Assembly (NCBI RefSeq): GCF_947623445.1
Contig: NC_135246.1
Coordinates: 14,863,856 to 14,927,855, forward strand
Reading direction: 5' to 3'
DNA from: Clavelina lepadiformis
Lineage: Eukaryota > Chordata > Ascidiacea > Aplousobranchia > Clavelinidae
DNA length: 64,000 nt
This document shows, in pieces, positions 4,315 to 58,089 of the stretch. The first letter of the stretch is position 1, and each line of letters starts with the position of its first letter. Under the pieces are notes generated by a model. That model ran no database searches. It saw only the letters and a program-made list of their open reading frames with translations, and was not told where the DNA came from. The position numbers and the translations under genes are program-made.

Positions 4315-6782
<2,468 letters not shown>

Positions 6783-8745: not shown

Positions 8746-10641
8746 TACAGTTTGAATCTTTTACAAATGTTAAGCGTTTTCATGGAAAAGCCTCAAGGTT
8801 TTAGAAGGTTATCTCGGTGTCTCGAAAAAGTTTGATAGGTTCGTAAAATCTCAAGGTTAGGTTATTGCAAAGAAAACGAAAAGAAAAAAAAAGAAATTGT
8901 TTATAGCCAATGTCACCATTTTCGTCAAGAAATTGCAAGCTAAAGATTTAGCCTCATAGCCAACATGCATAAAATTAGAGGATTTTGTTCAAATATTGTT
9001 CATATAATATACTCAGAAATACAGGCGCCAACAAACAGCTTGCACGGCAGTGAGATTTATGACGGATAAATGACACCGTAAAGTCCGCAAAAACTTTTTA
9101 TTATACAGGCTACATTTCAAGGTACACTCGTAACCCTGTTGTAATTAAGTCCGCTTCGTTATGAAAAACCTTACATAAAGAGTTATTCCTTACTAAATTT
9201 TAATTATATCACCTTGTTATTTCCACACTTACTACATAGCAGTCGGCACTTGGCATGTAGGCTATCGTTAATTAACCCCAAAAGTTGTTGGTTGGCTGGG
9301 TGCCAACAGAGTGTCTTGCTGGTAAAATCACCGCGCGTAGGCTACTGAATAACAAAATTTATTGTGAAAACCTTATTCAAACATAGAAATACAATACACA
9401 GCGCAACAGGGCATGAAAGCACGGTGTCGCACTTAGTATACAGAGTTATCGACCGCATTATAACGTAAAAAAGCCTACTTATGCCGGTGATCAGGTCAAA
9501 TATAAGATTCTCACTCATAACTATGGGATGGACAGTATATTCTATATACTATATAGCACTTGCTCTTTCGGGCTGTTTTTTTTTTGTATTTTTACTGTAT
9601 GTGTTTATTGTGAGCTTCAGCTTTACGTTTCGTTACATGTATTTATATTTTGTAATAAAGTAAACAGTTTAGAAAATAAATTAAGTTTGGCCAATTTACA
9701 TTTTTCGCTTCTACAACTTTTTGCCAAAAATACAATTGCTCAAATATCAAAATTTATTAACTATGGGATAATTTGCCCGTTTCTGTTGTTATTGCAATGC
9801 ATCATGCGTCAATATTGCACAAATTTCTCGCAGTTATACAGAATACATGATGAATCTTATCGTTATATTATTTTGATACTAAAAGCAACCGATAACGTTA
9901 GTGTTATGAGTTGAAGAAAGATTATTTGCAGTTTTCAATTCATTTTCAGTTTATATTTCAAAAATTGATAAACGTTTAAGTTACTTGATTTAAATTCATT
10001 CTGTTTAATTTCCTATCAAATATAGCTTGCTGAATTGACGATTTAAATATATACATTTTGCATTCCTTCTCTGAGCTAAATATGGTTTGGTTTGGTAACC
10101 ACTATGGTTTTCGCTGTAAACTATGACACTTTTTCGTCCACAAAAATATATTTATTGTAAAGTTACAAGACAAAGTTTTACCAATTTTTCATTCCTAAAA
10201 AAAAAAACTGCTTGGTTAAAAATGTCAATTGTTTTAATTGTTTAGTAGAAGTAAATTAATCTATTTGAAGGTCTACTAAATAAGATCTAACAAATGTTTG
10301 TTTTTGAAGCAAGTGACGATATAAAATGTAGTTTAAATAACAAATGCTCAAACAAACTTAACAAATATTGTTCTGATATGATGCAGCTGACGTAATCGTC
10401 TAAATATACGTCACAACCAGAAACTCTTTTTTGATTTTTGAAGATCGGCGAAACGAAAAGGTTCGTTAAATAAATGAAGTTATTAACGGGTATAAAGATT
10501 TCGGAAGGAAATTGTTTGTTTCGGGATGTATTCGGAAATGTCTGCGTGAAAAGAAAGAGATATGACGTCCTATCAGCAATACTTCATCACGTGCTGGCAG
10601 AAAATGAAACGTCGCCGCGGTATGCAAACAAGCGTTTCCTT
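8746..10641. other. spacer, nothing recognised
   Basis: AT-rich DNA. The overlapping plus-strand frames at 9481-9914 are hydrophobic low-complexity translations of T-rich sequence with no family signal. Confidence 0.35.
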
Positions 10642-10712
10642 GAAAAAGAAAGAAAACAGCAAGTAAAATTTCCATCAAACGTTTTTTTGTTAAACAAATG
10701 GTTGTATATAAG
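10642..10712 (+). promoter_or_regulatory. candidate promoter of gene A: ISRE-like motif plus TATA box
   Basis: GAAAAAGAAA (10642-10651) fits the GAAANNGAAA core bound by interferon regulatory factors and continues into GAAAAC. TATATAAG follows at 10705-10712, about 110 bp before the start codon of gene A, a normal distance for a core promoter plus a short leader. The upstream frame at 10474-10776 overlaps this region and is probably not a gene. Confidence 0.45.
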
Positions 10713-10821
10713 TCGAGAGCACAACAGTACCCCATCATCATATAGTGATTGCAATTACATCTATCGTATACATTGAAACAGTAAATATCTTTTCGCTGTC
10801 AAAGAAACGATTAATACGAAA

Positions 10822-12223
10822 ATGAGATTCAGAAGATATATTTTCTTGGTATTCCTCTTTGCATTCTGTCTTTCAACATTTGCATCAAGTAAAAAGCATA
10901 GAAATAAAAATAAAAACAGCAAAAAGGATTATAAGAGTTTTAAACTGCCAGCACTCTTAGAAAATGATCTTGATGACATTAGACAGGCTTTTAACAAAGA
11001 CAGCAACAGCACAGAAGACAACCAATCCGCACTTCGATTTGATTGCAAGGTGCAATATAATAATGATCTTCAGATATTGTCGTATGCTATAATGTATCCT
11101 TTTGCATTAATCTGATATTTTTACAATCATTTTTATTTATTAGGGAAAAGGCTTGAAGCGTTACAAACCTTCTCGAAAAACATTAATGAAAGTATGGCAG
11201 ATTAAGAAGAACAAGGACCAAAAAACACCTATGAAAACGTTACAGAATAAACATGGAAGCAGGGCTCTATTTTTGGTACAAGCATACAAGCTATCTCAGT
11301 GGGCCAAAGCAATGATGGTAGGAATGATTACTGCGTCCAATGCGTACTTTTAATGCTTATACCATTTATAGTGTGTGTACTTAATACTTTGCGATAACTT
11401 TCAACTTTTTTTTGTGTGTACGTTTTATTTTTTAAAATTATTTGCTTTGAATTATTCCGACTAATAGATCGTTTTATTTTGCAGCAAAATACCACGGTTG
11501 ATTGTAAGAAACGTCGTAAAAGCCAGGTATTAGGCATTATTATTATTATGTATTATTATTACAACACTGTAATTGTAAAGAATTTAAACATATGCAAACT
11601 TCGGAAGTATAGTTTGTGTTTTAGTAATTATATTAAGGTCAGTTTTAATTTTTTTCTGTAGCTTTACTGGTTCAGTTTTTTATTACATTGCATCTAAACT
11701 ATTAATTTTGTCAGAAAACAATGGGGTCGCACTGTCCAGGTAAAGTTATTGTGGATCAGGCATTATTGCAAAATCTTCAAAGTGAAAGTTTGAAATTAGC
11801 CAGCCGCCTCGCGGGAATTAACCCAGACAATAATAAAGACTCATGGGAAAAGGTAAAGGATGAAGTTGTGATAATTAAGTAAATTACATTGCTCAGAAAT
11901 ATTTACGAATCCGCTTTTTGGCATTAAAACGTTTTGAAGCTTTTTGTGTGCTGCGATTAATTGGAATCGTCTTTGTAAAACACGATTTAAGATCATACTC
12001 TAAATTGAAAACTAACAGTGTAATGTTATGACTTGCCATTAATTTACAGAAAATTGAAGTGAAAATGGACATGATAAAGAAAACAAAATACATGAAGAAG
12101 AACTTGCCGCGTTTCAGACAAAAACTACCTTGTGTAATATTTTCCGAAGAAATAAATAAATATTTTGCAACGTTACTGAAAAACACCATGGAAGAATGTA
12201 AAAGGAAGAAGAATTCCTGCTGA
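10822..12223 (+). CDS. gene A: small secreted helical, cytokine-like protein (251 aa)
   Basis: Exons 10822-11049, 11144-11317, 11485-11526, 11715-11852 and 12050-12223; every junction has GT/AG sites and every intron is phase 0. The protein starts with a clear signal peptide (about residues 1-23, ending STFASS) and is lysine-rich and mostly helix-forming. Features shared with B-D are a cysteine at the end of exon 1 (FDCK), an ALFLVQAYKLSQWAKAM helix in exon 2, a 14-residue exon 3 with one cysteine, HCPG and LLQNL in exon 4, and LPCVIFS in exon 5. I recognise no named family. Five exons with phase 0 introns, secretion and the helical pattern match the general architecture of class I/II helical cytokines, but this is inference; another rapidly evolving secreted ligand or an antimicrobial protein is possible. 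The first donor (GTGCAA) is weak. Confidence 0.75.
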
Positions 12224-14779
12224 TAAAACCTTTTATTGTGTATTCCTTGATATTTTTCTTTATTGTTCATATTATTTATCAAATATTTATAACATAAATG
12301 GTATTTACGTTATCGTTATGTTACGTCGCTATGCTACAATTGTTTTATACTGCAATTAACTTATTCATACACATACGCCCGCGCTCAGTAGTGACCATCC
12401 AAATTTGTATTTTGACAAAAACACTTTTTTGGTGACAAAATCTTTGCGTAAATATTGCCCGACGTATTAGCTATTTGTCCATGCCAACAATTTAGTTAAA
12501 TACATTTTTATATTTATTAAGAATCATATTTTGCTAATGTATTGTGCATATATGGATTTCTATTTTTTGTTCGACGCGTAAATAAAATATTTCTTATAAA
12601 GTATACATAATATAGTGGGCGTAAAGTTTAGTTGAAGTCGTGCAGCGTCACTTGGTTGTGTAATGTAGTCTACGTCAAACTTATATACCTATAAAAGATA
12701 ATGTTGCTATGCCTTTTTCCGGTATCAATTTTACCTTTTAGAAACATGACAAGTTTATAAATAGAAGTCAACGATGGAAAAAAATTGATTTAGTGCACGT
12801 TACATCCTTAATCGCTCTAAAATATGTTGATCACCAAATGGTTAGGTTATTATCTAAACATTGTGGACCCTATAATAACTGACGATCTAACACTTTCATC
12901 GATTCAAGAATACAAGCAAAAACGACTGCAGAATGTATTAGTTGATCTTGGGTAATCCAAATTTATTAAGATTGATAAATATTTGTTAACTATATCAACC
13001 TAAATTTATACAAAAATTAAGCAAACATCCGATTGACAAAAATTATTTGTTTGGTAGAGACAAGGAAATCCCAGCTTTTTCCAAAAATACCTACAGATCT
13101 ACATAAACAGATCAGTAATTCCATCAAAATGTAAAATTTTATGAATCTAAAACACGAGATATTCGTTTAGATTTGTAATAAGTTGACTTGCGTGTCGAGA
13201 CTGAAATGGGGATTTCCCACCAGGTGTTTAAAATCGATATCGTGACAAATTCTGTAACCGGGAAAAGTAGAAAGAAAGAATTGCGGTCCAGGTGTGGTCA
13301 TTATGGTTTTGGTTCGGTTACTCGATTGGAAATAAGTAGGCCTATGTCCTATAGCCAAGCTACTGCATTTGAATAAAGTGAATGCCTATAAACATGTATT
13401 GTAAAGCACATACTCGATGCTTTCGTTATTTTTTCTTTCTTCGAATTTTTAGTTAATTTTAATCTAAGTTAATTAAATGTTAATCGGTTGCTCTTCCCTA
13501 TGAATACTTCCGACTACAAGCGTTCTATAATATACGAGAAACACCAAAGTATTCCGTTCATTGGAAAAAGATGTTTTTTAGTAGTTTGCAAGTTTTGGAA
13601 CCATCAACTCAATTAAAAACTTGCCACATATACCTATAAAATATATGTTTTTTATGTATTTTAATTGTTCCAGAGGATATTATTTTGTCAAATTTTGAAT
13701 GCCTATTGACGATTTTGATTCCATATTTATGCATATAACCATATAGGCCTACATGAGAGGTATGAGTATGGCCATGAAATAGGAAGCTGGTTGTTTGTAG
13801 AATTATGCTGTTCATTCATGTTGCGTAGATCCGGCCGTCAAGAAATAAAATATTAAACTGAAATTAATTTCTATTTTGATAAAAATAAATTTTCCGCATT
13901 CACGGAAATAGAAAACAATCACATCCTGATTGCATGATGACTTTTCCAAATATAAAATTAGAACAGGCAATTTTAAAAAAGGAAACATTCAGACAAATAA
14001 ATAAATAAGTTGAAAGAAGAAACCCTTTCTGTCTGTATAAGGTGCTGAGCAACAACCAATATTTCAGTTTCCATATAACGTGAAATATATTTGTATATGT
14101 CGTGTATCTTCTATTTTAAGCTCTTGCCTGTCTCAGTCTGATATGTTCATACAGCTCATTACCAATATAATATCCCGGTACACTAGTACTTATGGTGATG
14201 GCGGAACATCACGCATCACGCAGTACGGCGTAAGCGTTAAAAGACGTCAACGTCAGAGGTTTCCCCGAAATTGGGAATCTTTGAAAGGTTAATAAAAGAT
14301 ATGTAAATAACGAATCCCTTCACAATTCATCGCGGCAGGACAATAAGTCAATGGTGGCAATCTTGGCGTTATTACGGCATCGTGCTCAGAAGCTATATTG
14401 ATATACTGAAGGCAAATGGCAACCAAAACCTAAATATTCTATTGCAATTGAAATAATCAGTTTATGGGCCAGGTATTTATTTTGAAGATATTTCTAAATA
14501 CGAAATAATTTTGTTTATTGAAAAACATAAGTTCACTTGCTGTGGAAACCATATACCTATAATAATGTATTGTAACCTATTTTTAGCACACGCTTCGTTA
14601 GCACACTATAACACACTTCCGTATGGAAAATTTTTAAAATTTGGCCAATGACAGAATTATTTGGTAAATTAAAGACGTAAGTTCACCTACAATTGAAAGA
14701 GCCGACAGGAATCTATTCAACCTTTTTTAACAAAATTTACATTGGCGGATAGATTCGCAGAAGGTATAACGTGAAGAAC
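12224..14779. other. spacer between A and B
   Basis: Contains the 3' flank of A, with an AATAAA signal near 12580, and the upstream region of B. A block at about 13798-13898 is repeated upstream of gene C. No further coding exon is supported. Confidence 0.4.
13798..13898 (+). repeat. duplicated upstream block, copy 1 (near gene B)
   Basis: About 100 bp including TTGCGTAGATCCGGCCGTCA, closely repeated at 17599-17702. The copies lie about 1.1 kb and 0.8 kb upstream of the first exons of B and C, as expected if B and C arose by a roughly 3.7-kb tandem duplication. Confidence 0.7.
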
Positions 14780-14808
14780 GAAATAGAAAGCAAAGCTTGT
14801 GTATAAAA
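14780..14808 (+). promoter_or_regulatory. candidate promoter of gene B: ISRE-like motif plus TATA box
   Basis: GAAATAGAAA (14780-14789) fits the GAAANNGAAA interferon-regulatory-factor core and lies only 12 bp before TATAAAA (14802-14808). The start codon follows about 120 bp later. The arrangement matches that of gene A. Confidence 0.5.
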
Positions 14809-14927
14809 CCACGCTACCGGACGCTTTCATTATAATGATATTCTTGTAACAACCAAGAAAGCATAAACGTATAGAACCGAAGGTTAAAAAGGCAATTGCA
14901 ATTTGCAATTGTGATATAGACCTATAA

Positions 14928-16403
14928 ATGATGAAGATCTTTGAAGTTTGTTGTGTATTAGCAGCTGTTCTGTTGTTGGCGTCAAATTTTTCAAGTGCAA
15001 AGAAGCAAAACAAACCATGTTTGCAAAATTTATTTAAAAATTTTACTTTGGAGGAAAATATTGAAATATTTCAAAAAAAATATAACAAACACAAAGACGA
15101 ATATTTTTTTCATTGTTCGCATACAAAAGTAAGTATATATTTCTGCAGGCAATTTGCTGTAACGGCTTCGAACTTGTTTGTGAATTATATATACATTCTG
15201 GAGTTGTAGATTTGTAGAAACAGCGACTTACACAATCGAGCTAAACGTAAATTACTGACTTCAATGCTTACCTTTCTGGTTGTTCTTGTTGCAGTGCAAT
15301 AAAAACATGAAAAAATCGAAGACGTTTCTGAAGTCACGCGTATGGTTGAAGAAAAATAAGACTAGTATGATTGAAGGAAAGTTAGGAAACTCTGGAGTCA
15401 TTCTCATTGACATTATTCGCTTGGAATCTTGGTTTATTTATCTCCAAAACCGAATCAAAGCCAATGTAGGATTAAAACATATTTTTAGAATAAGTTCAAA
15501 TCTTTACTATGATTTAATTCAAATTTTAAAAGGGTTTAATTTTGTTTCTATGGTAGTTGATCTAATTCCTATAGTCGTTGATTTTGCTATAAACTTGCTT
15601 GTTTGATTTTTGCTCGTATAAATGCATATGGATAAATGCACTATACCAGCAAAAGTGCAGCATCAATACGCGCAATTATATACTTAATTATAATATAACG
15701 TACTTAATATTTTGCTGACTTAATTTTTTGACAAGGGGTCGTTTTAGTATTACCTTGGTTTTAATCTGGTAAGCTTTATAGAATTGTTGAATTATTTCAT
15801 TTCGAAAAGATTTTGGAACACTCTTATTTTATACGTATTATTTTACAGGAGATGGTTGATACGCATTGCTTCCACCCAACTTCAGAATCAGTTTGCAAAT
15901 GCAAGCAGGTAATATTATTCCAGTTGTGATAACACGCACGTATAAATAATTAGATTTGTTCAACATTCATGTGTACAACATTCTTGCGGTTAAAAAATTA
16001 GATTGTCTGTAGTTTTGATTTAAAATTTGTTAATGTCTTTCAACAGGAAACTACATGCCAGCCATGTAAAATCGACCAAGTTTTTATTCAAAATTTGAAA
16101 AAGTTCACTCAAGATCTGTGGCATACTCTTCTACCCGGAAAGGTACTAAAAGCTGAAGATTAATTTATTTTATACTGAACAAAAGCCAACTTATAAAAAT
16201 TACTTGGTTTTTAGAACAACCTCAAAAATCAAATCGAAAGGTTTTTAATGAAGTCGTTAAAGTTGTCGAGGAAAAAAGTTAAAAAAATGTTGAAATTTAA
16301 AATGAACCGAAAAGCAAAGTTTCCTTGCGTGGTATTCACAGGAGCGATACTTCTTCATTTTGACAAATTGCTTGGCAAACAGAGACAGCACAAAAAGCAC
16401 TAG
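14928..16403 (+). CDS. gene B: small secreted helical, cytokine-like protein (238 aa)
   Basis: Exons 14928-15128, 15295-15465, 15849-15908, 16047-16142 and 16215-16403, all introns phase 0 with GT/AG ends. Two ATGs sit side by side; the second (14931) aligns with the lost start of paralogue C, so either may be used. The signal peptide (about residues 1-24) ends at SNFSSA. Exon 2 has ILIDIIRLESWFIYL, exon 3 four cysteines' worth of HCF and VCKC context (three cysteines), exon 4 CQPCKIDQVFIQNLKKF, and exon 5 FPCVVFTGAILLHFDKLL. The closest relative is C (CQPCKID shared); A and D are far more diverged. No domain is recognised; it is interpreted as a candidate helical cytokine as for A. A TATA box and ISRE-like motif lie upstream. 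Confidence 0.8.
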
Positions 16404-18436
16404 TTTGGATAAAAATGAAAGCCCAAGTCTTGTTGGCTTTGTCTGATGTTTCAACCGACATTCAACTGTATTCTTACTTTTAAATGCTATTTATTGTGTA
16501 CTCAAGAGCGTTGTATACTTGTCTTCATTTCATATCATTAATTTGTCTGTGTACTGTGATATTTTGATACAAATAACTTATAAGGACAACTATATATCTG
16601 TGTCTTAAACAATAAATTTACTGTATTAAATTATAGTTATCTGTCATAATACAGTGTTTTTATAGATTTGCTTTGTTTATTTATTTGTTTGTCTGTTTGT
16701 TTGTTTGTGGGTATAAATTACTATTCTGTTGTGTTATATACAATTCATTTGAATACAACACGTGTAAATGGCTGATTTCAGTTGATGCGTGAAATGATTA
16801 CGTATACAGTATTCCCACAGAAAAGGCAGAATTAAGTCCACATATATGAAAGCAACAGAAAGTAGGTCGTGTGTAACAGTTAAAATCGTATTTGACAAAC
16901 AACAAAACGACCAATGATGCGTTATTTGCGATGAAACGCAAATAATAAAATATTGATTTGTAGATTTCCATATTACCTTTCGTACGTAGGACTAGTTAGA
17001 GATTTAATGAAGTTCTAAGTATATATATATATATGGTAATAACAATGACATAGTCTAAAACCTTTTCAATAATGAGTTTTAGCAGATTTTCAAAAATTTT
17101 GCATACCAAAGAAACGAAGTCATTCATCAAAAGCTCGCGAAGGAGAAACTTTTGAGTATGGCGCGGAAGAGAAAACCGCAACCCATAATATATCCGACTG
17201 TTCTATCTACCAAATTCCTACTCAATGCATGGCATGCGAGTTTTGGATGCAAGCACAACCCAGCGGCTTCCCAACATCTGGTCCGGGGGTAGTCGAACAG
17301 CATCTATTATTAATTATTATTATTATTAATTTATTAATTAACATCTATCATCGTTTACACGAAGAAGAAGTTATATTTAATCGGTGCTGCAGACCATGCA
17401 GCTTGCCATGGAGACACAGCATCTTCGGTAAAGACACTTTAAGTTATCAGCGGCTTGGTTTTTTGTTTGCTTCATCAAAAATTAATGCTTTAAAGGTAAA
17501 ATTACTTCAGATGAAATAGACACAAATCTTTCTGCAAGTGCTTGATAAAAACTGAAAGTGTATTGTGGATGACGAAAGCGGCTGAGAAAGCCACCTATTG
17601 TTTGTAGAATTACGTTGTTCATTTATGTTGCGTAGATCCGGCCGTCAAGAAATAAGATATCAAACTGAAATTAATTTCTATTTTGATATAAACAAATTTT
17701 CCACCACCACGGAATACAAATGTAATTCCTATCTCGGTTTCATGACAAATTTTCTAAAAATAACAATCAAAACGGATGATTATTTAAAATTTCATCTTTT
17801 ATTTCGAACTAAATAAACAAAAAAAATACCTTCTCATATTTACAAGTCGTTAAAAGAAACCGAGATATTGAGTTTCTAAAAACGTTGAATATATTCGCAT
17901 ATTCTTTTTCCTCTAGATTTTTACTTTAAACTTAATCACCTATTTTGCAGTTGGAAAAATTAGCTATAATTGTAAATTAGTTAAAGTTAGTGAAAGTTTA
18001 TTAGTTATTGTCAGTTAGACAGTTATTCACTAACAAGCATTTGTTAAATAATTACTGTATATATCAGTTCATCGCTTGCTAAAACAGAACAATCTCAGTG
18101 ACGTTTTCGCGGAATTGCATACCTGTGAAAGGTAAACGTCATTATAGAACGAATATGTAAATATCACATTCCATCCAACACTGGACAACAGACCGATTGC
18201 AAGCGAAAGTAGCCAACGTAATATTTATCCGTTCCACTGAAATCACCGATTTCGTGTTTTTTTTTAATTAAAAATGAAGTGGGAAAAATAAAAGTAAATA
18301 TTCTCCAATTTATATATATATAATAAATCAGTTTGTATAGTATCATTACAACCAAACTGATTTAAAGAGCCGTAATAATATTAAGAAATTCGAGAAGAGT
18401 GCACTCGCATGTTACAAGAAACATTCAACCAATCAG
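16404..18436. other. spacer between B and C
   Basis: Holds the 3' flank of B (AATAAA near 16612) and the second copy of the duplicated upstream block at 17599-17702. A frame at 17229-17519 crosses an ATT-rich simple stretch and is not convincing as a gene. Confidence 0.4.
17599..17702 (+). repeat. duplicated upstream block, copy 2 (near gene C)
   Basis: Second copy of the block at 13798-13898, with scattered substitutions that suggest the duplication is not recent. Confidence 0.7.
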
Positions 18437-20557
18437 ATAAAAATTTTTACAGTTCTTGTTCTAGGGATAATTCTTGCGTTGTTGTCATCAAAACCGACGC
18501 TGGGAAGAAGATGGAAAGCAATTAATTGAGAAGAGGACTGGAAAATTTGAAGCAAAATTGGTGAAAAGCGAAAATAGTCACAGCTTCGATTGCTCTAACT
18601 TCAACAGAAAAGTAGGTTTTATTTCCACCCATTTATCTTAACGAAGTATTTGGTTCTGCTAATGATTGTTTCAGGGGTAATCTTAAATATCTGAAAATAG
18701 GCATTTATGGTATAGTTAGCAATTAGTTTTAGAATGTAAAACAAAGCTGACTGTCTTTTGCCAGCTTTGCAACAAAAGTCTGCTTATATATAATTTCATG
18801 TAATATTTGTTTCAAGCTGTAAAGCTGTTGTAGAAATGAAATGTTTTGACTGTTATCGTTAATTCACTGCATATGTATTTACAGCAAGTACTTCTTTCCA
18901 ACAAAGAGTTGAAAAATCTCGACAGTTTTTAAGGCGGCGTGTTTTACTGAAAAGTAACAAGAGAGCTATCTTTAAAAGACTGTTGAGTAAACCTGGCCTT
19001 TTGCTGATTGACACATACCGTTTGGGATTATGGTTTAACTATCTTCTGCATAACAATGTATGATTTTGCTCACAATCTTAGACAGACAATCATGTTTGCT
19101 ATGTTTGCCATGTTTGCTATGTTTGCTATATAATGTGTAGATAACTGTAGGAAAATATATTTCACAATGGTGGCTTATACTATATACCAGTGGATCCCAA
19201 CCTTTTTGTTACATTCCCTTCTTTGCCCACTTTTGAACTTTTCTTTCCCCCCATAACACAAAACAGATAAAATAAATGTGCTTGCTAGCATATGTGCTTC
19301 ATTGCACGTGCACTTGATGCAAGATTACGAGATCAGCTGTCAAAATATTTATGAGATAACAATGTTGGACAATATGGGTGTTGCGTAAACACTTAATGGA
19401 ATGTAAATATAAACAGTTAGTGAAACAATATCAAAGTATAGGTGTGATTCTACGCTCAAATATAAAGTGGAAATTCCTCCCTTGCAACCATGAAATTCCT
19501 CACCGGTTGGGAAACTCTGGTATATACCATAGTTCTATATATTACAGCATGATTTTTTTATCACTTTATATACTTTTATTGCAGTATTAACGTTAGAAAA
19601 ACTCATTAAAAATGCAAGGTATAAATTTACATAACATAATTTACCGACGACCCTAAGATTGTAATGTGTAACAATGTACTAACCTAATAAAACTCTTGTA
19701 ATACCAAACCATGTTTTTATAGGTGACTGCTGGAATACGATGCTTCAAACACCATTCGGAATTACACTGCAGTAAACAGGTAAAGTAACAAAAATCCAGA
19801 TAACAATCCAGTTTAGAAAATATGTTTGAAATTATACATAAACGTGCAGCTTGCAATTAACAGCAATATTCAAATCTTCATTTTTCCGATTAATATATTG
19901 CTATTTTCTGGTATATCTTGAACAGGAAGTTAGATGCCAACCTTGTAAAATTGACAAGGCTTCTCTTCAAAACCTGGAGAAGTTTTTTTTTGGACTTACT
20001 GCAAACTCTTCTACCCAAAAAAGTACAACCATTTCAAATTGAATAGTGATATATATATAGATTGTAGATATGTGTTGGAATCCAGCTATATGTATATTTT
20101 AATTTGTCGTCGAATGGCAGTGATATATGGTTCGGTTCGGACAGACCAGTAGAAACTGAAGCTAAATATAAGTTAAATCGTACTGTGTATAAGCTATAGA
20201 CTGACAGTAAATATCTACGCTACGTCCCTATACAAGCCCTTGCTTGTATCCAAATTTCATAATAATATCTCGAACTATGAGTAATATTATGGCGGGTATA
20301 ATCTGACCAACTAAACAGGAAATGAAAGTTAACCGAAGGTACAAGAATCCGCGCATTAAAGCAAGAAAAATGTTGAAGAAGAAATTGGTAAAGATCACCG
20401 GAGAATCGGAAGATTACGTTGCGAAGGAAGTCAGAAAGTTTTGAAATTAAATTTCGAGACACATGACAACCGAGAAAATTTGCCTTGCTCAATATTCTCA
20501 GGAGACATACCCCGCCATTTTCATAAGTTCTTTCCGAAACGACTCTCAACGAAATAA
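18437..20557 (+). pseudogene. gene C: decaying paralogue of gene B
   Basis: All five exons can be found by similarity to B: about 18437-18611, 18885-19057, 19723-19779, 19926-20022 and 20319-20557. The signal-peptide exon would read KIFTVLVLGIILALLSS, but the expected ATG is ATA. The frame shifts inside exon 1 (around 18524), exon 2 opens in a different phase from its relatives, exon 4 shifts at a run of nine T (about 19983), and exon 5 has TGA/TAA before returning in another frame to NLPCSIFSGDIPRHFHKFF. Family landmarks remain: LLLIDTYRLGLWFNYLL, CQPCKIDKASLQNLEKF and the PCSIFS motif. With several independent lesions this is most likely a pseudogene, though the T-run shift alone could be a sequencing error. 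A hAT-like element sits in intron 2. Confidence 0.75.
19188..19519. mobile_element. hAT-like MITE in intron 2 of gene C, 332 bp
   Basis: Starts CAGTGGATCCCAACC and ends GGTTGGGAAACTCTG, imperfect terminal inverted repeats of a type common in hAT elements. Flanked by 8-bp duplications CTATATAC and GTATATAC that differ at one base. No coding capacity. Confidence 0.7.
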
Positions 20558-22393
20558 TATTGACGACAGAAGAGCTATGATGATGTTTTGATATTTATTT
20601 TACGTAATTGTTTGCTCAAAAGTGTAAGTTTGTATTTATAAGTTTATGTTTTGCTTACTTAAATATTTATTCAATTGCTGTGGCTTTATCTACACATGAA
20701 TGTATTGCTGTATTTATTTGCTTGTCGTATTTATGCTGGTTTGTCATCGCTTTCAAAACAGATTTGGATTTCAGATTTACATACACATTGTCACGTAAAC
20801 ATAAACAGAGGTGCAATCTTTGCATTACTCGACATAATCCATGCACTTGTCAAATTAATTCGATTAACAAAGAATACAATGTATATTTTATGAAAGGGAT
20901 CTTTGAAAAAATAAATATAAAAAATTAAGTTATGAGCATTTACGATGTCGCTTCTCACACAGCGTGTGCAAATGGTGTGCCAAAAAGATTCGGATTTGTG
21001 GGAATAAAAATGATAGATTTTGATATCCGTACAGATCTAAATCCGATAAACTTAGCTCATTTCGCGTCATCGCAAAATACCTGCTGATGGTAGGCAAGGG
21101 CTCCGTGTTTACTACAAACATTTCATCTTTTTGGTATATTGTAGTGATGAGAAAAAGCCTGCTTTCCACTTTTGCGAGACTAAATATACAAATATTTCAG
21201 TAAATATTTCATCTATCTGTTTTAAGTTGCAGTAAATCATACAAAAAATGCTCAGCCGATTCGCTACATTGTTTTCTTGCTTTCTGCAAAAAAAAAAAAT
21301 CAGCCCAAATGTATGCTTGCAAGACCCGTATCGGCGAGAAACACAAAAGTGACTGATTTTTATGGGTGATGTTTAAATTTTGTTTGATTTGTCCCATATC
21401 TTCTTATTTACTAAACCGCCCAAGACAAACTTCTTGCAACGGGAATGTGTCCTACCCCCATGTTGATGAAGTTGTTTCTAAAAACTAAACCATCGTAGAA
21501 CGAAATAATTCTGTATTTGCAGTCAGACAGATTGAAGTATAGGAAAAATAAGCGTATATAGTGTGACTATTGGGCTATAATGACACTATTTTAAGCTTGC
21601 GCTTAAATGTATTATATTCTATACAAATTCTTCTGATGTCAACACACGTGACGTCGAATAATGTCAAAAAGACGAAAGGTTTATTATGGGCAAATGAACA
21701 TTTGGATAAGATCGTTTTGTATATAACGTTTGACGTGTTATGAATGGATAGTACGCAATGCGTTTACAATTATCTAAGCCGCATTCTTTCATACTTTAAC
21801 TGTTTCCAACCTTCGTCGTTATATGATATGGTATCCCAAACTATGTTGACATTGTGACGTATGCAGCTATGTGTGCGGCCAATGTATACGGTTGTAAAAA
21901 ATAAATATTTGGACACATTTTAAGCTAAAACAAAGTGTTTAAATACATCGCATAATCCTTTCCTGTTTCCTTCCAATAACAATTGTCACATAGGCGTATA
22001 TAGATTTCCTCTAAACGATTTTGTTGCAATTCGACCGAAACTTATTGTCCTTCAAAAAATAAAACCTAGCAAGAGACAAAGGAAATCGACGTATTTGATA
22101 GAGTGGGGTTTTCCCGTCGGACGCGATTTCAAAATAATGGAAAATTTTATTTGCGTTTCGCCGGAACAGGTAATTTTGGAACGGTATAATAGATTGTAAA
22201 ATTATATTGGCGATTGTTGCAACGGTGCGGTCATACACACAACACAACACAAAAAGTGTATAAATAAATTTTTGGCAAATAAATACGTCGCTGATGTATA
22301 GTATAGGTTTTTACGTTACAAATTATTTATACTTAATAATGCTCAAAATTTATTTATTGTCGGAAAAACACGAAATTGATTTTATTCAAAACC
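20558..22393. other. spacer between C and D
   Basis: No supported exon. The overlapping 72- and 106-aa plus frames at 20608-20928 and the minus frames at 20930-21397 show no motif or splice context. Confidence 0.4.
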
Positions 22394-22560
22394 GAAAAAG
22401 AAAATGACTGAAAGTCAGATGGATAAGCTCAAATGTGCTTTAAAGAAAGTTGTAAAACAGCGGAAAATTTCTGTATTTCTGTTATGTTATATATCTCTTG
22501 CTTGGAGTAAAATTTAACAACCAAATCGTGATTCGTAAACAACAATGCATTCTTATAAAA
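22394..22560 (+). promoter_or_regulatory. candidate promoter of gene D: ISRE-like motif plus TATA box
   Basis: GAAAAAGAAA (22394-22403) fits the same GAAANNGAAA core found upstream of A and B. TATAAAA lies at 22554-22560, 80 bp before the start codon. The motif is farther from the TATA box (150 bp) than in A or B. Confidence 0.4.
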
Positions 22561-22640
22561 GACGCACGTTCCTACCAACCAACACCATACACTGATCTCA
22601 GTACATATCGTCCTACTCTTGCAAAGTCTTCGAAGAGAAA

Positions 22641-24136
22641 ATGAGAAAGACAATGATTTTAGTCCTGGTTGTGATTAATTTCTCCACATTCTTGTGCCCA
22701 GCCGAATCCAGGTCCAGAAGAAGATCATATCGCCAACATATCTTTGAAATTCCAATTCAAAATATAAGAAGATTTCGAAAAAGTTTTATCAAGACCTGTA
22801 AGTTGACACGTTGGGAGAAAAAATGCCCAAGTAAAGAGGTGGGTTAATTAGAAAAAAATCTGGATGCTAGAAGAAAATATTTGGTTTTGAGCGATAAATA
22901 ATCATGTGTATTTAAGCTGTATTGAGTATATATGATTGAACATCGATCGATTGCAGGAACTAAGCGGAATTTAAAAAAAAAGAACAGAGCAATTATAATT
23001 CAAAAAAATATTTCAAATTTAAGAGCTCAAAGATTTACAAAACTTATTTTCATGTTTGTTTTTTAGATTTTACCCTGTTCCGAGAAGTGTGCCAGTAAAT
23101 TAAACAAAATATGGAGGCCTGAGGTCGAGTCTGAAGAGCCCAAGTGCGCGCTGTTACTTGATATGTTCCAACTCTCCCTATGGTTGGAAAACCTCACTCT
23201 ACCAGAGGCAAGTATAACCGATAACTACATTTATCAGATTTTGTATACTTGTCATGCAATAGTCATCGGCGATATTTGATTGAGGTATAATGAGACGATT
23301 GCGTGAGAATGTCAAGTAAGCGTTTCATTTTTCAGAACGGATGCTTTTTTCAAAGTAAACAGCGCCGCAATAGACCCCTTTTAGAGGAGGTAAGTAACCG
23401 ATTATTTGTCCTAAGTAAATAAACCGAAAGGGCAAACTACAATATACGACGATGCACATACAAAAAGAGGTCAACGATATGTTATACACAATATATAAGT
23501 AAAACACCATATTTTACAGGAACGGCATCGGAAAAACTCGCAAAACAAGCTTAACCTTTGGAGGCAAAAAGTTTTTTTGCAGGAATTGAAAAAAGACGTA
23601 GGAAACTTATTAGACACTCTCACAGGAACAAAAGGTCGCGACAGTGATAACAAACGAATGAGGGTGAGTATGAGCTCGCTGCTTTATAAATATAAAATCC
23701 CCTCATATTTCTAAACCTCAGCATAGATGAGTTCAAGAAATTATTTTCGATTGAAAGCTTTGTTATAATGTTTGCTGAGACAGAATTAGAACGTACGTCA
23801 AAAAGTAAATACTTTGAAAATCGGTCTCTTCGCTATAGCTGCGGCATTCAGTGGAAGCTGGAATATTACATAAATTCTTTCAATGGCAGTTGTCTCGTTC
23901 ACAATTTTAAACTTTCTTTTTTTCTTATGTACTTTTGCAATTTTAACTATTGGTACTGTATACTTACCCAACAGATATCTCAAAGAAAAGCCAGAAAGTG
24001 TTTAAGAAGACAGCACTCGAAAAAGTGGTCAATTCCAGAAACTGAAGGTTCTCAGTGTTCGTGTGTTATTTTCAGCCGAGTAATATCGAGACACATCAGT
24101 GATATGCTCATCAGCGCAACAAAACAAAGCTACTAA
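22641..24136 (+). CDS. gene D: small secreted helical, cytokine-like protein (232 aa)
   Basis: Exons 22641-22838, 23067-23207, 23336-23389, 23520-23663 and 23975-24136, all introns phase 0. Intron 2 uses a GC donor (AG then GCAAGT), the commonest non-GT donor in animals. A signal peptide (about residues 1-22, ending LCPAES) is followed by an arginine-rich stretch. Exon 2 carries CALLLDMFQLSLWLENL, matching the LLxDxxxLxxW pattern of B and C; exon 3 is 18 residues with one cysteine; exon 4 has VFLQELKKDVGNLLDTL, close to VFIQNLKKFTQDLWHTL in B; exon 5 has CSCVIFSRVISRHISDML. It is the most diverged member, recognisable mainly by exon order, phase and these motifs. Function unknown; cytokine-like by inference. 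Confidence 0.75.
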
Positions 24137-49634: not shown

Positions 49635-52600
49635 TTACAGTGAATCGATATAATTTAACAAGATTTGGTTTTTCATGAGATTCACGCCCAAACCATAATG
49701 AGTTCCATCAAAGCTATGAACGTGCTTGCCAAGCGCACGAAAATCGAAAACAGGTATGTCGTGTTCTTTGCAATATTTTGCTATCTCGATTGCAAGCTGT
49801 CCCATCTTCACATCATTTTGCATACCAAAATGTTGAGGAGGTTTCAAAAGCCCGGTTGGCATCGGAAGAACGAAAAATATTCGTGGCCAACGAGCTCCAG
49901 TAAGTTTATTCGAAGTGTAGTAATGACCAATCGCACTTAAAGCCGGATTTAGAAAGTTATCAATCACCGGCTTTGCAAGGCAACTCATGTGATAACCAAC
50001 ACCTAACATGATTAAGGTCCCATTCTTGCCAGCGAGTTTATTCACTAAGTTGATGAATTCGTCTTTGTAATCATTACTATAATATGTCAACACTTTAAGA
50101 TTAAAACTCGGTGATTTTCCTCCGCACAGCGATCCTGGATTGGCAACATCATTAATATCGCTTATGATATTCCTGCAAATAGGTAACTTATACATCTGGC
50201 ATGACATGCAGAGATGCTTTGCCTCCTCCGTCATCTGCTTCGGCCACGCTCCACGCACAGGATCACCAGCTAACAGCATGAGCGTTGTCATAAACATGTT
50301 ACGCATGAATGAATCTCCAACGTAATAAATGTCATTGAACGGAGACTGCTCTATCACGTGACAAGCTTCTATGGCGCTATAATTCCTCCACCAGCATCGG
50401 GGGTCATCCAATTCCCAAGAAGATAATTCTGCGTGCTTGTAAACTCGCATATCGATGCAACTATGATCAAAAACAAAGAAAAAAATGTCGAAGCAGCATT
50501 TTACTATTTAATTATATTTCACTTGATTGTGGATCGATGTTTTAAAAATACAAAGTAGCAAAGAATCATCAAAACTGACAATCTTTTATTAAAGCAGCTG
50601 GCGGTAAACTTAGTAAACTTAGTAAACTTAGTAAACTTAGTAAACTTAGTAAACTTAGAAAACTTAGTAAACTTAGTAAACTTAGTAAACTTAGTAAACT
50701 TAGTAAACTTAGTAAACTTAGTAAACTTAGTAAACTTAGTAAACTTAGTAAACTTAGTAAACTTAGTAAACTTTAGTAAACTTAGTAAACTTAGTAAACT
50801 TAGTAAACTTAGTAAACTTAGTAAAGCAACCAGTAAGCTGTTATTGCAAGCAAGACACCTATCTACTGTATATAGTTTAAGTGAGAATTATGATATTATA
50901 AAAAGTTTTTTATTTCGTCATTCAGACGCCACATTTCCTTCTTCGAAAATGTTGGAAAAACTTTGAAATTGGCAAACTTTTAACCAATCACACCAGATTC
51001 TTGTTTTTATTGCTGTTACCGTAGATACTGTAAATGAAATTTTCATGGTTCCAATTCAATTTATTTTATACCATTTATGTCATTGTATCGTATCGGTTAT
51101 TGTATGCTTCTGACATAAGAAGCTCAGAAATGGTGCTAAACTTGTTGTGGCATAAAGAAAACACAAGTATGCTCAAAAAAGCAATAGTTTATCTGGTTTA
51201 GTGGCCGTGCTAGTTGTTATCAGCACATTAATACCATCCGTATTTCTATGCACGTTTAAAACCTTTTAGACTTGTCAGCTTTTCTCCATGCGTAAACACA
51301 TGCTATTAACAACTATATAGTAGTGATGTTTCGTCCTCACTAGCCAACCCTGGAGTGACGAAAAATTAACTGATTGATTTAACGAACGGTAAACAAGCGG
51401 CAAAACCTCGAAGACTTAAAACAAGCAAGTTGTTTACTATCATATGTTGTAGTGCTGTACTATAACGAAAAGGTTGACGCGGCCACGAAGCCTAATACTG
51501 TATAAGTAATATAAGTAGCATATGCCTACTACCCAACATAATACTGCCTAATACCCAACTATATAGACTATACCAGTGCTTTTCAAACTTTTTGATGGGG
51601 GTTCGAACTTTTCAGTGTTACGAAAATCTGATCCGCACGTGATACTGTCCAAGATGTAAAACGTGGTGTACCGACACTTAATCACGCGACACTTAATCAC
51701 GCGACGCTTAATCACCGACACATAATCACTAGGACACTTAATCACGCGACACATAATCACTAGGACATTTAATCACGCGACTTGGATACTTAATCACGCG
51801 ACATTTAATCACGCGACACATAATCACTTGGATGTCGGAAAAGCGTGAGGAAAATTCAGTAATTCAAGCTCGTGTGCATCTCTCTGTGGGGATGGCGATG
51901 TGGATTGCTTGTAAGGTTGGCCTAAAGCCAAAGGCTATTAGTCTTTCTTTTAGAACTCCCCGACAATTGTCTTTGACTCCGTTGCGCCGGCTTTCTCTAT
52001 AATGTTTCTTTAAATCAACACCAGCTTCATAAAGTCTAATTGTTATATTGTCCGAAGTAAGTTGTATCACAATAGAAACATTTTCATCATCTTTTCACAT
52101 TTAAACAAAACTATAACTCCAATTCAGTAATGAACAGTCTAGAAGGTAAAACTGATATTATGTGTAGTGACAAGAAGGGGAGATTTTAACCAAACCTTAG
52201 TTTTTATACAAACACATTAGCCAATCAGGAAATAACATGTCATTTTGCATTGCTACGTATAACCTATGTAATATCTAACATTATTCTATTGTCACCGAAG
52301 CTCTTGACCAAAGTACCATCAAAACGTTACACCGTAAAATACAATGTTAGTTGCATGTAAATATGCATGTACTTGTTACAATGTAAATTGTAAATGTGTG
52401 ATTATGTGTCGCGTGATTAAACGTCCTAGTGATTATGTGTCGGTGATTAAGCGTCGCGTGATTAAGTGTCGCGTGATTAAGTGTCACCAAACCGTAAAAC
52501 GTTTGGCAGGCTGGCGATTTCGTCGTTCGTTCACTTTTTCTTGGTACTAATTGAAACTAAACATTCTACAAAACACTCCGTACCAGAATCCGTTTATGTG

Positions 52601-55600: not shown

Positions 55601-58089
55601 CATTTATATTAATGAATTAAGGATAAATTTAAAAGATTACACTGCCCAACAAAAAAAATTTTTTTTTGAGGTGCCAGCGATGTTTCAACGGATTTAGGGT
55701 AATTTGAGGTCGCTGATTCTGAATTTTGCATTGGTTTTGCTGAATTGGTTCTAGTTTTCGAGATATAGTCATTTTCTTTATTTCAGCATTTTTCACTATT
55801 TCTGGCATTAGTGACAGTGTTTTAGCTATCACGTCATTGTTTTCGTTTCGGTTGAAACCTCAGAATAGACTCAATTGTGATTCTAATTAAATAAACCTGC
55901 CTTATTTGTTGATGTACTGATAAAAATGCGCTAATTTTTCCTGATTTCTTGAAATTTTTAATGCACTGAAGGCAAGAATCGCTGACCTTGAACAAGTTTG
56001 CTTCTTTCGAGTTGCAGGTGTATAAAGCCTTACTCTTCTTAAAACTAGTTAGTAAGGCGACCGGTTGAGCACTGCAAAAGCATTCCCGTACCTGCGTTTA
56101 CATCAGTACCAGATTTTCAAGAAACAGATATTGAGGAAAAGCATGAAAGGAAACATAGTGAAGAAAATGGTGACAGTTTTATTAATTACAAAGAAAGCTC
56201 TTCCACTCTCGAACAGTTCACACAAAAGGAATTTATCAGAGACCGTAACTTATCAAAAGAAGCATCTGAGGTTTCAGCTTCCAGACTGAAGGAGAAGAAC
56301 TGTCTAAAGGCGGATGCAAAGATAACAGCTTACCGGACTAGAGAAGAGGAACTCCTTCCTTCTTCAGTCAAGATGCAGACCTTGTATATTGAAATGATAT
56401 AACTGGACTTCTCCTCTAAATGAAAATTCCTAGACTACAAACAAGAAGACTGGCGATTGTTTATAGACAGCTCTACCAGAAGTTTGAAATGCATTCTGTT
56501 GCATAATGGCAACTGCTATGCATCTTTACAAAACTGAAAGAAGAATATGAAAACGTCAAATTAGTTGTACGGAAGATCTGCTATGCTGAGCACCAGTGGT
56601 CGATTTGTGTTGACTTAAAGATGGTGAAATTTTTTGCTTGGGCAGCAAAGTGGATAAACTAATTATCCCTGCTTTATGTGCTTGTGGGAAAGCAGGGCAA
56701 AAATCCAGCACTGGGTAAAAAAGGCATGGTTCACAAGAGAAGACCTGAAAGTAGGTAAAGCAAATTTGATTAAAGAACCTTTGTTTCAAAGAAAGAAGAT
56801 CATTTTACCACCTCTCCATGTCAGGCAAATGTGATTGTTGTAAAAGTTTTTGTAGACGTTTTCCAAAACTGACAATCGAAAAATTGAAAGCAGGCATTTT
56901 TGATGGGCCTCAAATTCGCAAATTAATCAATCATTCAAATTTGGAACAAGCATGAACAATCTGGAATTCAAAGCTTGGTCTTGTTTTGTGTCTGTGGCGA
57001 AGAACTTTTTGGGCAGAAAACTATCCAGAGCTGGTGAAAAATATGCTCGAGGCCTACCAACAGGTAGGGGCAAATATGAGCATTTAAGTGCACTATCTCC
57101 ACAGCCATTTGGATAAATTTCCTGACAATTTGGGAGATTTTTCTGAAGAACAAGGGGAGAGATTTCATCAGGACATAAAGGTGATGGAAGAAAGATACCA
57201 GGGCAGATGGGAGAAAAACATGATGGCAGACTAATGTTGGTGTTTTCAGCATTTTTGTACTGACGTCCGCCATAAAAGAAAGTCATACAAAAAGCGATTC
57301 ACCAGCAACTATATATAAAAATAGACTTATTACGCACTGATTGATTTAGTATTGTGATATTTATGCATTTGACTATATTACTGGCTATTGTCCAAGTGTA
57401 TTACAGTTGGCTGAGACCTGAAACCTAGTATTGCGTTATGTGTGATATGAGTGGAATTTCCGAAAGTGAAAAATCTAAATATCTCAAAAACTAGAGCCAA
57501 TTGAGAAAAATGATTGCCATTTTTGAAATCAGCGACCCCAAATTAGCCTAAAATCGTTGTCAAATCTTTGGCATAAAAAATCGTGTTGACCAGTGTTATC
57601 AAAGCTCTTGCTTTACTTAAATTAAAAGAAGTTAACTATACTTTTCACGTTTGTGATAAGTTACTTATGGAAAAGTAAACAGGACAGTCCCTTCATGGGC
57701 AGATATCGATGGTGTCATGACCACAAGCAAATTTAAAAACCAAAAAGTGACTGACTAACTCACTGTTTATATCCACACAAGTCGTCGCTACGCACTGGGT
57801 CTTGCAAGATGCCCACCTTTCTCCTGTACTCCAGCAGAATGTTGTCATAATATAATTCTAGAGACTTGTTATGTTTGTGAACAACCCAGCTGCCACGACT
57901 GACGTTTAACAAAATGTTGTCACAATGTAATCTGTCTGTTGTATCACCGTGTGCCATGTTATACTGTGTCATGATTTCATCAAAAATAAAAAATCTTTGT
58001 CTGTTGGCCCAGTAGATTACAGTGAGAAAGGTAACTCCCAAAAGCACTGCAAGGGCTTTTCGGTAAGAAAATGACGACATGTTTACCAT
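49635..58089 (-). CDS. E7: outermost PC-esterase unit with transposon-filled introns (430 aa)
   Basis: Exons 58089-57764, 55222-55082 and 50460-49635, phases as in the other units. Exon 1 is the most diverged (MVNMSSFSYRKALAVLL) and carries seven extra codons around TQYNMAHGDTTDR. Exon 2 keeps all cysteines (PCCSNQQGGVC). Exon 3 is a near copy of the type II version, so it may have been converted by array members. Intron 2 is about 4.6 kb and contains a minisatellite, a fold-back element and nested hAT-like insertions; intron 1 holds a decayed DNA transposon. All splice sites still read GT/AG, including the exon 2 donor lying at a transposon junction. No spacer MITE lies downstream of it. Confidence 0.85.
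50604..50826. repeat. 9-bp minisatellite in E7 intron 2
   Basis: About 24 copies of GTAAACTTA with very few variants (one GAAAACTTA, one with an extra T). No interspersed spacers, so not a CRISPR-like array. Confidence 0.95.
51673..52485. mobile_element. fold-back element with tandem TTAATCACGCGAC subrepeats, 813 bp
   Basis: The left arm is built of repeated CACTTAATCACGCGA-type units (roughly 51673-51835), and the right arm (52398-52485) is their inverse complement, starting from the same GACACTTAATCACGCGACAC at each outer end. ACC flanks both sides and may be a 3-bp target duplication. The arms are so alike that the same peptide frame (CRVIK..., SVIKRRVIKC) can be read on both strands. No transposase is visible; it is a non-autonomous fold-back-type element. 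Confidence 0.75.
53650..53989. mobile_element. nested hAT-like MITE
   Basis: Begins AGTGGTTCCCAAAG and ends TTTGGTAACCACTG, imperfect inverted repeats inside the larger element. The target duplication is not clean. Confidence 0.5.
54021..54929. mobile_element. nested hAT-like element with CAGGGCTACTCAACTGG ends
   Basis: Left end CAGGGCTACTCAACTGG; right end ATAGTTGAGTAGCTCTG reads as its imperfect inverse. About 909 bp, no transposase frame. Target duplication unclear. Confidence 0.6.
55640..57595 (+). mobile_element. decayed autonomous DNA transposon in E7 intron 1
   Basis: Terminal inverted repeats of roughly 150 bp (CACTG at one end, CAGTG at the other, both containing a GAGGTCGCTGATT-like core) and TTA on both outer sides. 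The interior, read on the plus strand in several frames, gives fragments such as EDWRLFIDSSTRSLKCILLH and EHQWSICVDLKMVKF, which I recognise from a transposon-borne protein widespread in invertebrate genomes. Many stops and frameshifts interrupt it, so it is inactive. Confidence 0.65.

Follow-up and report, generated by a model that had tools for sequence, protein, structure and literature searches.

A tandem cluster of secreted, helical-cytokine-like proteins in the ascidian Clavelina lepadiformis as candidate interferon relatives

A tandem cluster in the ascidian Clavelina lepadiformis comprises three intact genes (A, B, and D) and one pseudogene (C), and we read the intact genes as encoding secreted, fast-diverging class II (interferon/IL-10) helical cytokines, or a direct analogue of these, with a probability of about one in two. 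The cluster lies in the window, by which we mean the whole 64,000-nucleotide stretch of contig C7 (NC_135246.1) that was analyzed. A sequence-only reading of this DNA had suggested a helical-cytokine-like family; that suggestion is still the best single reading and is here narrowed to a class II, interferon-like one. In its favor are IRF-like sites in all three live promoters, the placement of cysteines, and the presence in this genome of STATs, IRFs, a clear class II cytokine receptor gene, and a probable second one. It is not proven: none of the sequence or profile searches led to a cytokine, and relative to the helices assigned here, two of the four introns lie elsewhere than in IL-10/IFN-lambda genes.

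Gene structure and relatedness of the copies

With splicing read from the DNA sequence alone, genes A, B, and D each have five coding exons (Table 1). All 12 introns are in phase 0, acceptors are uniformly AG preceded by a mostly pyrimidine- or T-rich stretch, and donors are GT with the sole exception of D intron 2 (GC). Five exons with phase 0 introns, a tiny third exon (14, 20, and 18 aa in A, B, and D), and signal peptides had all been claimed for these genes and are borne out, the last by inspection of the hydrophobic, signal-peptide-like N termini. The joined products (A, 251 aa; B, 238 aa; D, 232 aa) have masses of 25 to 27 kDa and net charges of +25 to +33 from residue counts, and they carry three (A), two (B), and one (D) N-glycosylation motifs. 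Their pI of 10.0 to 10.3 is high for an interferon and counts against that reading. Phase 0 is the commonest intron phase in animals and the four introns are common to the copies by descent, so by themselves such introns carry little weight. IFN-upsilon was discovered by looking for five coding exons with phase 0 introns, a signal peptide, and multiple helices (PMC8863823).

Table 1 Features of the cluster (positions in the window)
Feature	Position	Strand	Evidence
IRF-element-like GAAAATGAAA, followed by C (ISRE-like), upstream of A	10600..10609	+	promoter scan
IRF-element-like GAAAAAGAAA, upstream of A	10642..10651	+	promoter scan
TATA-box-like site of A	10705..10711	+	promoter scan
Gene A exon 1 (signal peptide, putative helix A, terminal Cys)	10822..11049	+	splice model, leave-one-out profile
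Gene A exon 2 (two predicted helices)	11144..11317	+	splice model, exon 2 motif, AlphaFold
Gene A exon 3 (14 aa, one Cys)	11485..11526	+	splice model
Gene A exon 4 (QxL, putative helix D)	11715..11852	+	splice model, leave-one-out profile
Gene A exon 5 with stop (PCVIFS, last helix)	12050..12223	+	splice model, leave-one-out profile
IRF-element-like GAAATAGAAA, upstream of B	14780..14789	+	promoter scan
TATA-box-like site of B	14802..14808	+	promoter scan
Gene B exon 1	14928..15128	+	splice model
Gene B exon 2	15295..15465	+	splice model, leave-one-out profile
Gene B exon 3	15849..15908	+	splice model
Gene B exon 4	16047..16142	+	splice model, leave-one-out profile
Gene B exon 5 with stop (two predicted helices)	16215..16403	+	splice model, AlphaFold
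Pseudogene C, exons 1 to 5 recognizable, frameshifts and stops	18401..20560	+	frame reading, genome search, profiles
IRF-element-like GAAAAAGAAA, upstream of D	22394..22403	+	promoter scan
TATA-box-like site of D	22554..22560	+	promoter scan
Gene D exon 1	22641..22838	+	splice model
Gene D exon 2 (GC donor)	23067..23207	+	splice model
Gene D exon 3	23336..23389	+	splice model
Gene D exon 4	23520..23663	+	splice model, leave-one-out profile
Gene D exon 5 with stop	23975..24136	+	splice model, leave-one-out profile

Copy C is a pseudogene. By frame reading, the signal-peptide-like part and the remainder of its exon 1 lie in different frames, exon 4 has a frame shift close to a T-run, and exon 5 contains stops and one frame change. 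What had been described as a tandem family of four is thus three live genes and one frameshifted relic. A genome search with B as the query matched C exons 2 and 4, and at the DNA level B and C align significantly in a single block only, in exon 4 (70.6% across 109 columns).

The copies share sparse motifs. The motif common to exon 2 is L-x5-L-x2-W, in place of the LxxDxxxLxxW first proposed, whose D is Q in A. QxL in exon 4 is present by eye in all four copies, and the exon 5 motif, proposed as PCxIFS, is restated as [PS]-C-x-[IV]-F-[ST]. We ran 15 leave-one-out profile tests, covering exons 1, 2, 4, and 5, against 4255 reading frames from the window and its 30-kb flanks, after removal of the other cluster genes; C exon 4 entered the exon 4 alignment with only part of its range. 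The left-out exon ranked first in 9 of the 15 tests, second to fourth in 5, and ninth in 1, a resemblance among the exons that is more than chance. Exon 1 is the weakest exon (ranks 3, 4, and 9; E = 0.73, 0.53, and 2.6) and D the weakest gene (ranks 9, 2, 1, and 1; E = 2.6, 0.82, 0.026, and 0.08), and homology across the cluster is best demonstrable in exons 4 and 5. Single-sequence searches found no further members in the 209-Mb genome, and the profiles found none in the window and its 30-kb flanks, where the best other match (exon 1 profile) had an E value of 0.089.

Promoters and signaling components in the same genome

An IRF-like GAAANNGAAA motif lies within 250 bp before the ATG of all three live genes (four sites, each in the orientation of its gene) and occurs in 3.4% of the other 250-bp intervals of the window, both figures being for a motif chosen after the sequence had been read. 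Among 16 dyads of equal composition, GAAANNGAAA alone occurs in all three promoters. GAS-like sites are found in two of the three promoters, and NF-kB-like sites in none of the three (400 bp).

The same genome encodes candidate receptors. R1 (L030; contig C2, about 5.3755 to 5.3767 Mb) is, by its sequence matches, a clear class II cytokine receptor gene: the joined exons match Tissue_fac (1.3e-12) and Interfer-bind (4e-4), and the best PDB matches are IFNAR1 (1.8e-5) and IL10RB (7.2e-4), followed by IL22RA1, IL10RA, IL20RA, and IFNGR1. Its first four introns have phases 1-2-1-0, as do the first four in the 1-2-1-0-1-0 series typical of class II receptors (PMC8863823). R2 (L031; contig C7, about 13.873 to 13.874 Mb) matches Tissue_fac below the cut-off (2.8e-4) and is probably a second such gene. 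The membrane-proximal motifs of the two receptors are IPEEL/IPKEL. A genome-wide Tissue_fac search gave seven matches, three of them at the two receptor loci, where the exons taken singly fall below the cut-off. The sole match above the cut-off (L019), with its neighbors, and two others (L022 and L023) resemble fibronectin-repeat proteins in their open reading frame listings, and another (L020) lies inside a 5790-aa open frame; all four of these loci were set aside. A PF09294 search gave 12 matches, 7 of them above the cut-off and none at the two receptor loci. STAT_bind gave five matches on C9, C6, and C1, four of them above the cut-off, and IRF gave 15 exon matches in about eight loci.

The receptor genes and the cluster are connected only by their common genome. 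Human EGLN1 and EGLN2 lie on the same chromosome arms as the IL10 and IFNL clusters; five RyR matches, sought as markers of the human EGLN block, fall on C6 and not on the window's contig C7, so they lend no support from synteny.

On the class II reading, IRF factors made active by infection would act at the GAAANNGAAA sites just upstream of the TATA-box-like promoters, and the A, B, and D proteins would then be secreted. Each would fold with helix A from exon 1, helices B and C from exon 2, a short loop from exon 3, helix D from exon 4, and helices E and F from exon 5, and a disulfide would join the cysteine after helix A to that at the start of helix F. The ligands would bind class II receptor chains of the same genome, R1 and probably R2, at whose IPEEL/IPKEL motifs JAK would dock, followed by STAT, and the role of the proteins would presumably be antiviral. 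That this amounts to a complete invertebrate interferon circuit (IRF to tandem class II cytokines to class II receptors to STAT), with a pre-vertebrate interferon and an intron-rich ancestral gene of different exon-to-helix layout, is a possible but tentative extension.

Fold, cysteines, and competing readings

The cluster proteins have no match above the cut-off in Pfam and no sequence match in the PDB. In a profile comparison with 14 human cytokines (60 shuffles each), the best were IL-6 and IL-2: for either, 2 of 60 shuffles scored as high, scarcely an improvement on the 3 of 60 of the ferritin control; for IL-10, IFN-alpha, IFN-beta, and IFN-lambda, 33 to 53 of 60 shuffles reached the score. 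Maxima in a helix-periodicity scan were not above the shuffled median except in B (0.65 versus 0.64). AlphaFold, given single-exon alignments of exons 2 and 5 only and folding each alone, predicted two helices in exon 2 (H11-26 and H40-57; mean pLDDT, 66.1) and two in exon 5 (H2-35 and H43-60; mean pLDDT, 76.5).

Introns of IL-10 and IFN-lambda genes fall between helices A|B, B|C, D|E, and E|F. On our helix assignment, the cluster introns fall at A|B, twice between C and D, and at D|E, so that two of the four differ. IL-10/IFN-lambda-type introns lie at analogous positions (PMC2654155). Chance alone would give four shared phase 0 introns to a few percent of genes with five exons. The lack of homology in the Pfam, PDB, and cytokine profile searches, the half match of intron positions to class II genes, and that few-percent base rate would all suit secreted helical proteins of an unrelated family restricted to this lineage, with a reproductive, allorecognition, or other fast-evolving function, its five phase 0 exons and promoter motif being coincidental. 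We consider this unlikely, as IRF-like sites in three of three promoters would seldom arise by chance (0.034 per 250-bp interval; four sites on the strand of their genes, for a motif chosen after reading).

In all three intact genes, one cysteine comes after putative helix A, close to where exon 1 ends, and another opens the predicted last helix of exon 5; D has two candidates for the first place. These places would fit a disulfide from the AB loop to helix F, which among class II cytokines is confined to type I and III interferons (PMC4034011). The C-terminal CAW(E) motif of type I interferons is absent, and [PS]Cx[IV]F[ST] stands in its place.

The strong basic character of the proteins (pI and charge as above), their fast divergence in tandem, and IRF sites that would suit any immune-induced gene could also describe cationic host-defense proteins with antimicrobial or heparin/nucleic-acid-binding activity, working on the microbes themselves with no receptor involved. 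IL-26 is a cationic IL-10-family member with antimicrobial action, showing that the two roles can coexist. We nevertheless find a purely host-defense role quite unlikely: a length of 209 to 230 aa, N-glycosylation motifs, the pair of helices predicted in each of exons 2 and 5, and the conserved L-x5-L-x2-W favor a protein folded as a bundle over a lytic peptide.

Class I helical cytokines of the growth hormone (GH)/prolactin or IL-6 type could signal through STAT and a receptor of the gp130-like or CLF-3-like kind, the two class I receptors present in Ciona (PMC1963337). The profile comparison placed IL-6 and IL-2 at its head. GH, like type I and III interferons, has a disulfide between the AB loop and the last helix, and the exon 2 helix of D (LLLDMFQLSLWLENL) resembles GH helix B around its tryptophan. 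We regard class I membership as quite unlikely, since those profile scores hardly exceed the ferritin control, EpoR_lig-bind (the only class I receptor family searched) gave a single subthreshold match in the genome (E = 1.99), the IRF sites fit interferons better, and GH and IL-6 genes have a first intron that lies inside the signal peptide and is not in phase 0, whereas cluster exon 1 takes in both the signal peptide and putative helix A before a phase 0 intron.

Significance and comparison with known systems

Interferons have been traced back to fish or early vertebrates (PMC5127012; PMC2654155; PMC8863823), and the word interferon has zero occurrences in a review of tunicate immunity (PMC5465252). 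An invertebrate class II receptor gene raises the question of its ligand, for which the cluster is a concrete candidate. If its products are interferons, the interferon system predates the vertebrates; confirmation would date that system and show how far ligands can diverge while the layout of their genes and the logic of their promoters are kept.

Class I long-chain cytokines (GH/PRL and IL-6) resemble the cluster in the up-up-down-down bundle proposed for it, in the putative AB loop-last helix disulfide as in GH, and in a tryptophan in the second core helix; they differ in the placement and phase of their first intron, and no convincing sequence signal links the two. The IL-10 family (IL-10, IL-19/20/24, IL-22, and IL-26) shares five coding exons and phase 0 introns and, on our putative assignment, would share six helical elements, but IL-10-type disulfides are not evident in the cluster, the exon-to-helix layout differs, and the profile comparison gave no sequence match. 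Oyster CgIFNLP and arthropod Vago, invertebrate proteins proposed to be interferon-like and under IRF control (PMC8218723; PMC4602278), are like the cluster invertebrate, IRF-linked candidates, although we claim no kinship; CgIFNLP is about 15 kDa (PMC8218723), compared with 25 to 27 kDa here. Intron-containing type I, III, and IV interferons (fish IFN-phi, IFN-lambda, and IFN-upsilon) differ from the cluster in that it lies outside the vertebrates, shows no detectable sequence similarity to them, lacks CAW(E), has two of four introns placed differently on the helices we assign, and has a pI of about 10. They resemble it in their five coding exons, phase 0 introns, signal peptide, length of about 200 aa, tandem arrangement, and fast evolution, in a cysteine after helix A and another at the start of the last helix (type I and III), and in IRF-site promoters with a class II receptor, STAT, and IRF in the same genome.

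An intact three-gene cluster and its dead copy

The sequence-only reading had described a tandem family of four five-exon genes for secreted proteins, and this description holds for three of them. Read from the sequence, genes A, B, and D are intact and each has five coding exons, exclusively phase 0 introns, a hydrophobic leader, and a tiny exon 3 of 14 to 20 aa; splice sites are canonical, with one GC donor in D as the sole exception. The fourth copy, C, has the same exons and is a pseudogene, since these carry frameshifts and stops. In the genome search, B matched C at exon 2 (E = 9.6e-6) and exon 4 (E = 0.104).

We assessed homology among the copies with leave-one-out profiles of exons 1, 2, 4, and 5, run against 4255 reading frames with the other cluster genes set aside. 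The omitted exon ranked first in 9 of 15 tests, with exon 5 recovered at E of about 1e-6 in A, B, and C. Recovery was poorest for exon 1 (ranks 3, 4, and 9 only). For D, with ranks 9, 2, 1, and 1 for the four exons, the per-exon signal is weak, but the order is collinear. Single-protein searches of the 209-Mb genome (G000) with A, B, and D found no member outside the cluster, a search that distant members could escape, and a profile search of the window plus 30-kb flanks found no extra member (best other E, 0.089).

The same reading had placed an EGLN gene alongside, and the MYND zinc finger exon near the cluster is consistent with EGLN. Seven tandem copies, closely alike by eye and spaced about 3.6 to 4.3 kb apart, also occupy the window; each has an open stretch of 278 to 290 aa, shortened to 202 aa in one, which carries GDSFMRN and GTHYGLGVN. 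A Pfam search of two of the copies, run to E of 10, gave no match.

Locations of the features discussed (window positions unless a contig of G000 is named)
Feature	Location	Strand	Remarks
MYND zinc finger exon	6612-6782	-	8.8e-11
Genes A, B, and D	10.6-24.2 kb	+	
Seven tandem copies	26310-50507	-	
Tandem array	50604-50825		9-bp unit GTAAACTTA, 24.6 copies, 98% matches
Exon with membrane anchor	57760-58098	-	may begin a gene of the seven-copy kind
Receptor gene R1 (L030)	G000:C2, about 5.3755-5.3767 Mb		
Probable receptor gene R2 (L031)	G000:C7, about 13.873-13.874 Mb		about 1 Mb from the window, same contig

Promoter sites

The motif GAAANNGAAA occurs 13 times in the 64 kb, counting both strands (shuffle mean, 7.1; at least 13 in 3 of 100 shuffles). 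Four of these sites sit within 250 bp before an ATG (two in A, one each in B and D), all on the gene strand, and the remaining nine are scattered across the window. Elsewhere, the motif is found in 3.4% of 250-bp intervals on either strand and 1.6% on the same strand (5.0% and 2.3%, respectively, for 400-bp intervals). It was spotted during reading, six patterns were tested, and the 250-bp limit was set afterwards; because motif and limit were thus chosen post hoc, the product of the three promoter frequencies is not a clean p-value. Among 16 dyads with the same letters, GAAANNGAAA is the only one common to all three promoters. No site lies in the 400 bp ahead of C, whose start is approximate. 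TATA-like sites stand 87 to 126 bp ahead of the ATG in all three genes, and such sites are frequent in this AT-rich window (178 in total).

Class II receptor, STAT, and IRF genes in the genome

Tissue_fac gave seven genome matches. The sole locus over the cut-off (with its neighbours), L019, resembles a fibronectin-repeat protein and was rejected. The receptor exons are individually sub-threshold (E = 0.008 to 0.12), and two adjoining matches on C2 belong to one gene, R1. Its exons encode a class II ectodomain with two domains, as well as a membrane span with an IPEEL motif close to the membrane. Its joined ectodomain matches Tissue_fac at 1.3e-12 and Interfer-bind at 21.1 bits (cut-off, 21); in PDB it matches IFNAR1 and IL-10RB best, and class II receptor chains make up 11 of 13 matches up to E of 1, among the matches listed. 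The first intron phases of R1, 1-2-1-0, are shared with the start of the class II receptor pattern, 1-2-1-0-1-0, as given in PMC8863823. On sequence grounds, R1 clearly reads as a class II cytokine receptor gene; used as a query, it retrieved no close paralogue in the genome.

A second class II receptor gene is probably present at R2, where stretches resembling D1 and D2 accompany a membrane span followed by IPKEL; its scores are under the Pfam cut-off. The computed acceptor for its exon 2 produced a frame clash, and a phase-2 acceptor, picked by eye, was preferred. Among the matches listed in the open-access literature, no title or abstract opening reported a cytokine or receptor of class II from a tunicate; R1 and R2 may be receptors already known, and we do not claim their novelty. 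STAT_bind has matches on C9, C6, and C1, and the IRF DNA-binding domain has 15 exon matches on C1, C4, C7, and C9, grouped into about eight loci, several of which crowd on C4 near 18.9 Mb. Ciona is reported to have nine IRF-like genes (PMC2885996).

Candidate identity of the encoded proteins

Sequence comparison with known families was silent. Pfam searches at E up to 10 returned only sub-threshold, mutually inconsistent matches, and PDB had none for B or for the A/B/D profile. That profile, compared with 14 human cytokines and two control proteins with 60 shuffles apiece, yielded nothing convincing: scores were reached by 2 of 60 shuffles for IL-6 and IL-2, the best cytokines, 3 for the ferritin control, 7 for IFN-gamma, 19 for IL-22, 22 for the globin control, 26 for IL-20, 33 for IL-10, 35 for IFN-beta, 44 for IFN-alpha, 53 for IFN-lambda, and 20 to 53 for the remaining five cytokines. 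Helix periodicity was not above shuffles in A, B, or D, the value for B being a marginal exception.

Folded alone, exon 2 (A plus three relatives) is predicted to form two helices (mean pLDDT, 66.1), the second bearing L-x5-L-x2-W in a stretch with pLDDT of about 83 to 84. Exon 5 (B first) is predicted to form a long basic helix and then a second helix that begins a few residues past a conserved cysteine (mean pLDDT, 76.5). These predictions lend weak support, because lysine-rich exons in isolation readily turn helical. In the putative layout, helix A would lie in exon 1, B and C in exon 2, a short loop in exon 3, D in exon 4, and E and F in exon 5. All three intact genes have one cysteine past putative helix A and another where the last helix starts; gene D offers two candidates for the former, and two alignments pick different ones. 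Each intact gene also carries a cysteine in exon 3, as does the C piece. Within class II cytokines, an AB-loop to helix F disulfide is confined to type I and III interferons, according to PMC4034011.

We give roughly even odds (about 0.5) that A, B, and D are class II-like helical cytokines. An unrelated family is unlikely, cationic defence proteins that act directly are slightly less likely still, and class I helical cytokines are the least probable reading. No test is decisive by itself, and five phase 0 coding exons are, taken alone, weak evidence for cytokine identity. The class II-like reading rises above coincidence because separate lines agree: the sites in the promoters, the placement of the cysteines, the helices predicted for single exons, a class II receptor that calls for a ligand, and fast evolution in tandem. 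The initial suggestion of cytokine-like proteins gains from the first four of these, and is weakened by the silent sequence comparison and by intron positions, which agree with those of IL-10/IFN-lambda at two of four, given the helix assignment inferred here. That same layout would match the long-short-long connections of helical cytokines and would have the same count of helical elements, six, as class II cytokines (PMC7689341).
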